Source of the DNA: Gemella sanguinis ATCC 700632
Lineage (GTDB): Bacteria > Bacillota > Bacilli > Staphylococcales > Gemellaceae
Direction of reading: 5' to 3'
DNA: 45,706 nucleotides
NCBI RefSeq assembly: GCF_000701685.1
Contig: NZ_JNJO01000012.1
Location: 1-45,706, forward strand
Shown piece after piece: positions 29,607 to 33,084 of this stretch. Both the position numbers and the translations under genes were made by a program. The first letter of the stretch is position 1. The number at the start of each line of letters is the position of its first letter. The notes below the pieces were generated by a model. The model did no database searches. It was not told the DNA's origin and was given only the letters and a program-made list of their open reading frames with translations.

Positions 29607-29642
29607 AAAACAGGATTGACTAAAAATCAGTCCTGTTTTTTT
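29607..29642 (+). terminator. Terminator of the PspC gene (copy 1 of a repeated terminator)
   Basis: AAAACAGGATTGA and TCAGTCCTGTTTT enclose CTAAAAA, followed by T. The same 30-base block recurs at 33049-33084 with one base change. Confidence 0.9.
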
Positions 29643-29744: not shown

Positions 29745-30980
29745 ATGAAAAAACTTATAAATAGAATAGCAAATGTTTTTAGAAAAAAATCAGAAGACTC
29801 AAATAATGGGAGTGAAATATTTGAATATCACGCACTTATAAAAGAAGATGGTCAGTATAAAATAATATGGAGCAGAGATGGTAAATCTTTTGAATATGAA
29901 ATCTCAGAGACTTTAGCGAATAAATCAAGAAAGTCAGATAAAGGTGCGCTAGAAGTAATGTTCTATGTAGAGCATAATAGATGGCCGCAAGAAGGGGAGC
30001 TAGATAATTATCACCAAGTAAAAGTAAAGACATATAGAGGATCGTTGTTTACAATTTATGTTGAGGATGACAAGTATGAAATAGGGTTTGAGAGTGAACA
30101 CGGTCATATGAACTTAGGAGATGAAAAATTTCCTATAACGAAAGAACTAAAGGAAAAAGCTTTTAAATCATATGAAGACGCAGAAGCGGTAATGTGGTAT
30201 GCGTTGACGGGGGCTTGGTTATCCGATGGTAAGGAAGAAGTCTTTAGAAGATTCTTTAGAAGGTTTCCAAAATTCATACTTGTAAACCCAGAAAAATATA
30301 AAGGATTATTTTCGGAAGAAGAGTATGAGCATATATTGACAGTTGCTAAAGAAACAGAAGAAAGAGAAACTGAAGAAGCTAGGGAAAGAATTAGAGAAAA
30401 GATTCGTGAAGAACCTGAGTTGATACTATTGGATACTGAGAGAAGAAAACAGTTATTTTCAAAAGAGGAGTTTGAATATCTATTTTCACTTGCATTAGAC
30501 AAAGAAAGAGAATATATTAGAGAAAATCCTGTAAATATATTAGTGTATCCAGGGAGAAATCAAAGATTATTTTCAAATGAGGAGGAGTACAATCGCCTAG
30601 TTTCACTTGCAGAAGAACAATGGGAAAAGGAAAAAGGGGATGTAAGATATAGCTTAAAAACCGCTGATGACGGAGAAACAAGATATTTTGAAAAGATAAC
30701 ACTAGAAGCTATAGTAAGGAATCAGAAAGCTCGTAAAGAATATATTAGAAAGAATCCTGAAAGTATGTTAGAGAGTATACAAGAAGGCAAAGATCTGTTT
30801 TTAGAGGAAGAATTTGAATCTATCTTATCATTAATAGAAGAACGAGAGAAGGAAAGAAAAGCTATTCGTAAAAACCCAGAGCTTATATTGGAAAAAATAG
30901 AAGAAAATAGAAAACTATTTTTATCAGAAGAAGAATTTAACCATTTAGTGTCGATTGCTAAGGAAAAAAAGAATTCTTAA
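29745..30980 (+). CDS. Repeat protein, cytoplasmic half of a split paralogue family
   Basis: This 411-residue protein has no signal or membrane segment. An N-terminal domain (about 30-165) contains two internal copies of K-S-x-x-(S/D)-(K/E)-x-A-x-x-V-M-x-Y-x-x-x-x-x-W. Five 33-residue repeats follow (171-203, 220-252, 258-290, 334-366 and 374-407), with the pattern (R/K)-x-x-P-x-x-I-L-x5-7-(K/R)-x-L-F-x-x-E-E-(F/Y)-x-x-L-x-S-x-A-x-E. The N-domain is clearly shared with the gene at 31752. I do not recognise the family. It is followed after 10 bp by the gene for the missing membrane half. Confidence 0.8.
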   Translation: MKKLINRIANVFRKKSEDSNNGSEIFEYHALIKEDGQYKIIWSRDGKSFEYEISETLANKSRKSDKGALEVMFYVEHNRWPQEGELDNYHQVKVKTYRGSLFTIYVEDDKYEIGFESEHGHMNLGDEKFPITKELKEKAFKSYEDAEAVMWYALTGAWLSDGKEEVFRRFFRRFPKFILVNPEKYKGLFSEEEYEHILTVAKETEERETEEARERIREKIREEPELILLDTERRKQLFSKEEFEYLFSLALDKEREYIRENPVNILVYPGRNQRLFSNEEEYNRLVSLAEEQWEKEKGDVRYSLKTADDGETRYFEKITLEAIVRNQKARKEYIRKNPESMLESIQEGKDLFLEEEFESILSLIEEREKERKAIRKNPELILEKIEENRKLFLSEEEFNHLVSIAKEKKNS

Positions 30981-30990
30981 GGAATAAACT

Positions 30991-31581
30991 ATGAATAAGT
31001 TAAGCAAAAAATGGAAGATATCTATAATGGCTATAGCAGTTTTGTTAGGCAGTCTATATGGCATTTATAAAGCAAACAACAGAAATGCATTTGAAGAAAT
31101 GTTCAACTCATACTATAATTTTGTACCGATATCGGCTCTATATAATATGCCGCAAATAGAGCCAATACCTAGAGATAATATAGGAGCTGATGTTGTAGTA
31201 TTAAACTATAAAGAAAATAATAATGAACGGGAGATAGATATTACATTAGTAGGTGATGATAATGAAAGTATTTCAATATTTTACTCTGTATTAATATCTG
31301 ATGGAGTACATTTAGCTATAAATTATAGTTATGATATAAATAGTCATAAATTAAGAAATTATGTAAGTTTCTACGGAGATAATGTTCCAAAGACTAAAGA
31401 TGAAAAAAAACAAATTGAAGAACTACTCAAACAATATAATATTTCTAAAGAACAGCTACAAAAAATATCAGATGAAGGATTAGATAGAGTACTGACGGAC
31501 TGGAAAAGGTATAGTAATAGCCCATATTCAAGAGATAATATGGGAAGACTAACGATAGAAAAAGATGAGTTTTTAAGGTGA
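30991..31581 (+). CDS. Membrane-anchored exported domain, other half of the split paralogue
   Basis: This 196-residue protein has a short basic start, one membrane segment (about 10-27) and an exported domain. It aligns along its whole length with the C-terminal part of the 31752 product: N-x-N-A-F-x-E-M-x-N-S-Y-Y, MPQ, YSYDI...KL.NYV, YNISK, LTDWK-x-x-S-x-SPYS-x-DNMG and TIEKDE. ATG 30991 has AAGGAA upstream and is coupled to the preceding gene. No known domain is named. Confidence 0.8.
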   Translation: MNKLSKKWKISIMAIAVLLGSLYGIYKANNRNAFEEMFNSYYNFVPISALYNMPQIEPIPRDNIGADVVVLNYKENNNEREIDITLVGDDNESISIFYSVLISDGVHLAINYSYDINSHKLRNYVSFYGDNVPKTKDEKKQIEELLKQYNISKEQLQKISDEGLDRVLTDWKRYSNSPYSRDNMGRLTIEKDEFLR

Positions 31582-31599
31582 TAAATTAAATATAGATAT

Positions 31600-31637
31600 A
31601 ATAAGGTTGTGGCTTAAGTAAAGTTACAACCTTATTG
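31600..31637 (+). terminator. Terminator after the split gene pair
   Basis: AATAAGGTTGT and ACAACCTTATT arms with a 15-base loop. Confidence 0.8.
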
Positions 31638-31751
31638 TTATAATTACTCAATAATAGTATAATAAAGATAAATAATATAAGGTTTTAAATAAGGGAGAAA
31701 TAAGTTAGTTTAAGCGTAACTAGTATACTGAAAAAAAGGGGCGATTGAAAA

Positions 31752-33047
31752 ATGCAGGAAGTAGAAATAGAAACTTATAAACATCATGGAATATGGATAA
31801 GTGGTGATGAGTATAATATATTTTGGTTTAGAGGTAAAGAATATTTCAGTTATGATGCAACGGAAGAATTGGTAGAGAAATCAAGAAAATCAGATAAAGA
31901 TGCATTAGAGGTAATGTTTTATTTAGAACATAAAAGATGGCCCGAAGAAGGTGAATTAGAAAACTACAATAAAACAGATATTAAAACATATGTAGGAGAC
32001 GGATTTTTAATTTATGAAGAAAATGGAGAATATGAAATAGAAATAGAAAGAGATTGGGGAAAAGCACAACGTTATCCTATAAATAAAGAGCTCAAAGAAA
32101 AAGCGCTAAAGTCCTCTAGAGATGGATACGAAGTCGCAATATATGCAGAAACGGGACGATGGCCCTTAAAAGATCAAGATGAGGTAGACAGAGAATTCCT
32201 TAGGAAATATCCTGAATTCATTCTTAAAAACCCTGAATTTAATAAAAAACTATTTTCAGAAGAAGAATATGAACACTTAGTAAAACTTGCAAAAGAAGAA
32301 CAAGAAAAAGAAAAAATAGCGGAGAGAGAAAAAGAAGAAATTAGAGGGAATCCAGAACTTATCTCATGGGTATCAGAGAAAAAAAGAAATTTATTTTCCA
32401 AAGAAGAGATAGAGCGTTTAGAGGTGCTTGCAAAAGAAAACAAAAAAATTCATAAAAAGAAAATAAGAAAACGATGGGGAAAAATTATAGTAGCAAGTGC
32501 AGTAGTACTTATATTCTTGAGTGGAGGGTTATATGGATATTTTAAAATAAGTAATAAAAATGCATTTCAAGAGATGTATAACTCATATTATCATTTATCC
32601 CCTTATAAGTCAGTTGAATATATGCCACAATTAAACGAGCATTATAGACCAACAAAAACACTGTGGGATACACTTACACATTTATATTCTAATAAAGCAA
32701 GCTTGACATACAAAGGTTTTAAAAAAAGTATAACCTTAGTAGAAGATGGTCAAATAGTATTGGAAAAGTATATCCCAATATCGGAGGATGCAAGTATAGA
32801 AATATACTATTCATATGATATAAAGGCCTATAAATTAACCAATTATGTAATTGCAAAAGAAGGGTCTAAAGAAGTACCAGTAGAAGACTTTCTGGAAAAA
32901 TATAACATCTCAAAAGGATACATAAAAGCAGTATCAGATAAATTGTTAGATAGTGTATTGACTGATTGGAAGAACTTTAGCGGTAGCCCATATTCAAAAG
33001 ATAATATGGGAACAATAACAATTGAAAAAGATGAAATATTAAAATAA
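31752..33047 (+). CDS. Fused repeat and membrane protein, full-length member of the family
   Basis: The 431-residue protein has an N-terminal domain (about 10-145) with two internal motif copies (KSRKSDKDALEVMFYLEHKRWP; KSSRDGYEVAIYAETGRWP). Two 33-residue repeats (148-181 and 197-229), a basic stretch, one membrane segment (about 244-264) and an exported domain (about 268-431) follow. It contains in one chain what the two preceding genes carry separately. Topology is probably repeats inside and C-terminal domain outside. ATG 31752 has AAGGGG upstream. Function is unknown; a cytoplasm-to-surface link is only inferred from layout. Confidence 0.82.
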   Translation: MQEVEIETYKHHGIWISGDEYNIFWFRGKEYFSYDATEELVEKSRKSDKDALEVMFYLEHKRWPEEGELENYNKTDIKTYVGDGFLIYEENGEYEIEIERDWGKAQRYPINKELKEKALKSSRDGYEVAIYAETGRWPLKDQDEVDREFLRKYPEFILKNPEFNKKLFSEEEYEHLVKLAKEEQEKEKIAEREKEEIRGNPELISWVSEKKRNLFSKEEIERLEVLAKENKKIHKKKIRKRWGKIIVASAVVLIFLSGGLYGYFKISNKNAFQEMYNSYYHLSPYKSVEYMPQLNEHYRPTKTLWDTLTHLYSNKASLTYKGFKKSITLVEDGQIVLEKYIPISEDASIEIYYSYDIKAYKLTNYVIAKEGSKEVPVEDFLEKYNISKGYIKAVSDKLLDSVLTDWKNFSGSPYSKDNMGTITIEKDEILK

Positions 33048-33048
33048 C

Positions 33049-33084
33049 AAAAACAGGATTGACTAAAAATCAATCCTGTTTGTT
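33049..33084. terminator. Terminator (copy 2 of the repeated terminator)
   Basis: AAACAGGATTGA and TCAATCCTGTTT around CTAAAAA. Near-identical to 29607-29642. It lies between converging genes and can serve both the repeat protein and nanE. Confidence 0.88.

Follow-up and report, generated by a model that had tools for sequence, protein, structure and literature searches.

How did one short stretch of a Gemella sanguinis genome come to carry the same protein parts twice, once in a single chain and once divided between two adjacent genes, and what might those parts do? The window analysed, a whole stretch of 45,706 nucleotides from strain ATCC 700632 (contig NZ_JNJO01000012.1), holds the three genes in question, which we call A (29745-30980), B (30991-31581) and C (31752-33047). 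All coordinates are those of the whole window, and the observations on the island come from a single assembly. On balance, we favour reading A, B and C as an orphan immunity island directed against toxins of the type VIIb secretion system (T7SSb), with C as a two-sided polyimmunity protein and A and B as its two-gene counterpart.

In this proposal, the TipC domains of B and C would be tethered at the outer surface of the membrane by an N-terminal anchor, and would there block TelC-type lipid II phosphatases delivered by neighbours. The head domain and its helical repeats would remain in the cytosol and bind a different toxin domain, one known from streptococcal polymorphic toxins. C would unite both immunity domains in one chain, one on each side of the membrane, while A and B would supply the same two functions from two coupled genes, the pieces having been recruited from a stock of heads and TipC genes that stood alone. 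We put forward only tentatively that C may be a membrane-spanning double antidote that neutralises one type VII toxin in the cytosol and another outside by joining a nameless immunity family, which would have a likewise nameless toxin partner of its own, to TipC, with A and B as the unfused version alongside; both faces of C would then have to work.

Split and fused versions of one set of parts

A, B and C are all open on the forward strand and encode 411, 196 and 431 amino acids (aa), respectively. Protein comparison aligned A with residues 7-227 of C (50% identity, E 2e-63) and B with residues 242-431 (41% identity, E 4e-40), and found no similarity between A and B (best E 8.1). The pair thus carries the parts of C on two genes, broken just ahead of the membrane segment, as had been proposed from the sequence. 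The break is not the product of a single sequencing error: over 550 single-base variants of positions 30900-31009 (some of them equivalent), the longest frame reached 416 of 611 codons. An AAGGA motif at 30979-30983 overlaps the stop codon of A and, read by eye, is likely B's own ribosome site, 7 nt ahead of its ATG.

The product of A (model mean predicted local distance difference test (pLDDT) score 78) is predicted to be a cytosolic head followed by five helical repeats. Alignment, profile and model place the head, two strand-then-two-helix units together with the first repeat, at 29745-30371. The repeats, located by repeat matching, run from 30237 to 30965 with an insert at about 30618-30725. 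In C, the head with its first repeat covers 31752-32315 (alignment, profile and repeat matching) and the two repeats cover 32181-32441. Repeat matching bore out the earlier counts of five in A and two in C. The repeats described as 33 residues long do exist, their length being approximate: the core is about 34 residues, and the spacing in A is 38-49 residues, or 76 across the insert.

Hydropathy located one membrane segment in B (residues 10-28; 31018-31074) and one in C (residues 245-263; 32484-32540), and none in A. Within the 15 residues at most ahead of the anchor, B has four K/R and C has nine, with no acidic residue in either. A K/R-rich, acid-free stretch ahead of an anchor is the usual sign of an N-inside, C-outside orientation, and we infer this sidedness for both proteins. 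The outer domain of C follows at 32541-33044; the term 'exported' applied to it refers to a signal anchor judged by hydropathy. Reading frame, repeats, hydropathy and the TipC evidence given below agree with the original prediction that C combines an N-domain, repeats, a membrane segment and an exported domain in one chain.

The TipC outer domain and its type VII setting

The family NF033863 (NCBIfam, TipC-family immunity protein) matched B with 134 bits (E 7.2e-39) and C with 79.1 bits (E 5e-22), against a cut-off of 30. Searching the PDB with an alignment of nine TipC domains from this genome returned TipC2 (6dhx, E 6e-7), and fold comparison of the C model with 6dhx gave Z 10.6 and a root mean square deviation of 3.0 Å over 118 aligned residues, the next entry reaching Z 6.1. 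The nine aligned sequences, C included, share 46 invariant columns. We assign the outer domain of both B and C to the TipC family of immunity proteins. TipC proteins are described as membrane-anchored, with an outer domain that blocks TelC, which type VII systems secrete and which acts as a lipid II phosphatase (PMC6193138, PMC5555719). By analogy, the outer domains of B and C would block TelC-type lipid II phosphatases.

The genome provides a type VII setting at other places. EssC scored above its family cut-off on contig C9, as it did in two of eight other species of the genus. Three LXG proteins were found, only on contigs C1 and C19; the LXG scan of the genome placed none in the window. 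The head-toxin profile described below was likewise negative at the island, which therefore holds no toxin gene of these two sorts; other toxin kinds were not screened for. On contig C1, a TelC homologue (match to 5ukh, E 6.5e-35) adjoins a TipC gene. The order there is a head-only gene, a 112-aa gene, another head-only gene, two small genes of LXG-partner type, the TelC homologue, the TipC gene and a second LXG cluster. Contig C19 carries an LXG protein, a 161-aa gene and six tandem TipC genes (L010:3046-6657). Its LXG protein did not match TelC when the PDB was scanned and resembles the C1 TelC homologue only over about the first 250 residues. Contig C1 also holds a stop-broken TipC gene between unrelated genes (C1:23065-23717; L011:8135-8724).

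The head domain and its candidate toxin

The head consists of two similar units, each made of strands followed by two helices, according to alignment and the models of A and C. It matched no family above cut-off in Pfam, NCBIfam or PADLOC. A profile built from four heads matched 53 of 247 Streptococcus genomes. Across the class, it matched 11 of 398 genomes, namely our own and ten of the genus code that contains named Streptococcus records; across the order, our genome alone (1 of 157). None of the eight other species of the genus matched, though TipC matches occur in four of them. Outside this genome we counted 64 distinct head-bearing open reading frames (ORFs), those clipped by locus ends being taken as they stand: 33 also carry DUF6572, 31 consist of a head or one unit alone, and none carries TipC.

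Wider scans added little. Genome contigs confirmed no relative of C as query and yielded six Streptococcus loci with the head alignment. Pattern scans confirmed no relative of the head or TipC in viral contigs and found none for C in plasmids. A phage scan with C returned four Listeria-labelled fragments covering its residues 103-169 only. Proteins of 117 aa with a one-unit head stand among small genes behind toxin-like fragments on unverified wastewater contigs labelled Listeria phage (L176:1743-2096, L177:1964-2317).

In Streptococcus orisratti, a gene for a toxin-like protein of 736 aa lies one base from a head gene. Among 18 distinct Streptococcus head regions, with the identical records L035/L156 and L031/L125 counted once, seven have just upstream of the head a gene sharing the C-terminal domain of this protein (L149, L150, L151, L152, L153, L156 and L160, several partial or broken). 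Fourteen of the regions had been chosen by their head match before the toxin comparison; seven of these have the domain, or 6 of 13 without S. orisratti, where the toxin had been seen earlier. Head and toxin matches are separated by -2 to 48 bases in seven genomes. A diverged copy of the domain adjoins a one-unit head in G628. The toxin domain has no Pfam match, and a PT-TG hint further upstream stayed below cut-off. Its profile matched eight of ten Streptococcus genomes tested, and one of the eight other species of the genus in part and with a stop. It matched nothing in our own genome, so the heads there look like orphans as regards the streptococcal toxin domain.

In the streptococcal fusions, the head lies on the N-terminal side of DUF6572. 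In Streptococcus suis, toxin neutralisation falls to the region preceding DUF6572, and DUF6572 itself binds the EssC ATPase (PMC12558993); DUF6572 proteins have also been reported downstream of LXG toxins in Streptococcus gallolyticus (PMC13253547). Given the DUF6572 fusions (33 of 64 ORFs) and the position of heads just downstream of a toxin-domain gene in 7 of 18 regions, we interpret the head as an immunity domain acting in the cytosol, which would bind a toxin and protect against it. The solubility of the head suggests in turn that the toxin domain acts in the cytosol.

The DUF6572 fusions also bear on a different role for the head, as a delivery adaptor or chaperone that C would tether at the membrane. 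Helical repeats suit a scaffold, and parts of immunity genes can be adaptors, as the binding of DUF6572 to EssC illustrates (PMC12558993). In that account it is the N-terminal place, the one held by the heads, that neutralises the toxin, and heads are present in our genome with no match to the toxin domain. We regard an adaptor role as unlikely.

The order of genes on contig C1 raises a further alternative, in which a single toxin is countered by both halves, each in its own compartment: the head would hold a TelC-type toxin in the cytosol before export and TipC would block it outside, much as ExiAB and ExiCD do for EsxX, a known case of compartment-specific immunity pairs (PMC12744356). Two stand-alone heads just upstream of the TelC operon may indeed imply a link to TelC itself. 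On the other side, the toxin domain next to heads in 7 of 18 Streptococcus regions is a different one, DUF6572 is present in 33 of 64 head ORFs and TipC in none, and the window has no LXG protein. Moreover, Streptococcus intermedius that has lost tipC is not put at risk by its own TelC (PMC6193138), which makes a cytosolic arm unnecessary. A single toxin met on both sides of the membrane therefore has perhaps a slim chance of being the explanation, and we retain two different toxins as the preferred reading.

Several further proteins surround the streptococcal heads. Genes of 140 aa encoding one-unit relatives with one repeat (e.g. L031:7557-7979) often adjoin full heads, and the one-unit relative in L150 has as its neighbour an LXG protein that carries a diverged form of the toxin domain. 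Beside head genes of Streptococcus parasanguinis CC87K (L036:9281-9892), an IFS-type immunity domain (PF16718) bears the end of a DUF6572 tail (profile positions 60-105 of 106), so these tails seem to be shuffled among immunity genes. A 465-aa frame in Streptococcus G561 (L111:1993-3390; L159:6833-8230) shows by eye a half-head, DUF6572, hydrophobic segments and a Ser-rich tail, and likely has a membrane part.

Origin of the island and its relation to known systems

The original prediction explained the two versions by a fused gene that was duplicated in tandem, one copy then undergoing fission. The shared order of parts and the break at a domain border fit such a history, and a clade of the A and C heads was not rejected in a tree test (p 0.34). 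The TipC parts point elsewhere. B has 89% DNA identity to a TipC gene of the C19 array (C19:4864-5454) and 61% to the TipC part of C. The match to the array extends from the spacer ahead of the ATG through the 3' flank and its hairpin (31603-31634, forward strand), which is akin to the end of the array, was found by eye and flank alignment, and was missed by the terminator scan. In trees, B pairs with the array gene C19_5454 (94/90), and a clade of the B and C TipC domains was rejected (approximately unbiased test, p 0.031), only moderately because the TipC of C is a long branch. At the DNA level, the head of C is closer to the second C1 head (76% identity, 567 bases) than to the head of A (65%, 553 bases). 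Stand-alone heads and TipC genes are, besides, far commoner among the ORFs scored. We consider duplication and fission improbable. The simplest reading is that the pair and the fusion arose by combining members of two pools, one of heads and one of TipC genes; reported recombination among tipC paralogues is in line with this (PMC9484751).

Counting fused against split homologues, we found a head with TipC in C only; outside this genome, none of the distinct ORFs scored (64 with a head, 58 with TipC alone) combines the two. The survey covered 30 TipC loci from 72 TipC-bearing Streptococcus genomes and three stretches, among the matches listed, so that rare fusions could escape it. The long, fusion-like TipC frames of G616 and G608 were partly N-masked, could not be judged and were dropped as evidence; a 300-residue TipC frame in G724 (L121) had no head match. 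With heads and TipC domains mostly separate, and two immunity domains needing no contact, the idea that the split halves must meet is not supported.

Since C was seen once, in one assembly, it might have arisen through a chance fusion that has no function, or through faulty assembly. Against this, the 431 codons of C form one uninterrupted frame in which both sides of the junction show homology, and the TipC alignment that includes it keeps its 46 invariant columns. The ratio of nonsynonymous to synonymous rates (dN/dS; simple counting method, some dS above 1) is 0.16-0.44 across the head and TipC parts compared, those of C among them; in C, it is 0.25-0.38 for the head compared with the C1 heads and 0.30-0.44 for TipC. 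An accident or error is highly improbable.

Other observations, like the heads upstream of the C1 TelC operon, weigh against the orphan two-sided island that we prefer. The fused form is present in this genome only, among the lists searched. Within the C model, residues 233-333, comprising the anchor and the start of the outer domain, have pLDDT below 50. The TipC of C is just 37-46% identical to the other eight of the genome and may for that reason bind a partner other than TelC. PDB sequence and fold searches with the head returned nothing convincing (best Z 4.3). Eleven of the 18 Streptococcus head regions compared have no such toxin domain beside the head. Six of the eight genomes positive for the toxin profile supplied its own rows; of the four others tested, all head-bearing, G154 (beside the head) and G207 match and G741 and G676 do not, and the G207 match is not beside any head found.

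The island lies between the convergent genes pspC and nanE. The matched parts of these genes are 51-53 bp apart in three of the eight other species of the genus (G003, G004 and G006) and 787 bp apart in G005, where the gap holds cargo (L143) whose start resembles what we take to be a Phd-type antitoxin. The site in G002 (L171) holds a nanE remnant and a gene for a surface protein, presumably NEAT-like. The best pspC and nanE matches of G001, G007 and G008 are on different contigs or far apart. Terminator-like hairpins stand at the left (29607-29638) and right (33051-33082, both strands) ends of the island; they are 32 bases long and share 31 of them, and related genomes with an empty site have a different hairpin there. 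The scan found three terminator-like sites against 1.2 expected by chance, and promoter-like sites were no more frequent than chance (19 versus 21.2).

Parts of this arrangement are known. Like TipC1 and TipC2 of S. intermedius (NF033863, PDB 6dhx), B and C have a predicted anchor followed by a putative outer domain, of crescent fold in the C model, and occur as tandem paralogues, and one TipC lies by a TelC homologue elsewhere in the genome; mixed immunity arrays with tipC genes have already been noted (PMC6193138). In contrast to TipC1 and TipC2, about 240 residues of C, predicted to be cytosolic, precede its anchor, and the window copies have no neighbouring LXG gene. The place of streptococcal heads N-terminal to DUF6572 recalls the DUF6572/EIC-CR-tail immunity proteins of S. 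suis (PMC12558993), whereas A, B and C have no match to DUF6572 (PF20212) and C ends in TipC instead.

The polyimmunity proteins of Zhang et al. (2012; PMC3482391) likewise carry several immunity domains per chain, the second in C being its putative head, at small toxin-free loci; the available text of that account names SUKH, SuFu and Imm combinations and does not mention domains on both sides of a membrane. Separate protection inside and outside the membrane is known from ExiAB and ExiCD against EsxX, there with separate proteins, one toxin and other families (PMC12744356). Polyimmunity and compartment-split protection are thus known already; in the open-access literature searched, as far as its text was available, we found no description of a head-TipC fusion or of a two-sided single immunity chain.

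Once TipC is recognised, the parts of the island become explicable; what merits testing is the proposed two-sided fusion, together with the head and its candidate toxin partner. The head and the toxin domain form a candidate toxin-immunity pair to which the Pfam and NCBIfam scans made here gave no name; it occurs in Streptococcus, and the head also in this genome. The fused and split forms side by side offer a ready test of whether fusion alters protection. If the proposal is true, immunity domains swap across the membrane border as well as along the locus, and one gene can therefore cover toxins acting in two compartments.

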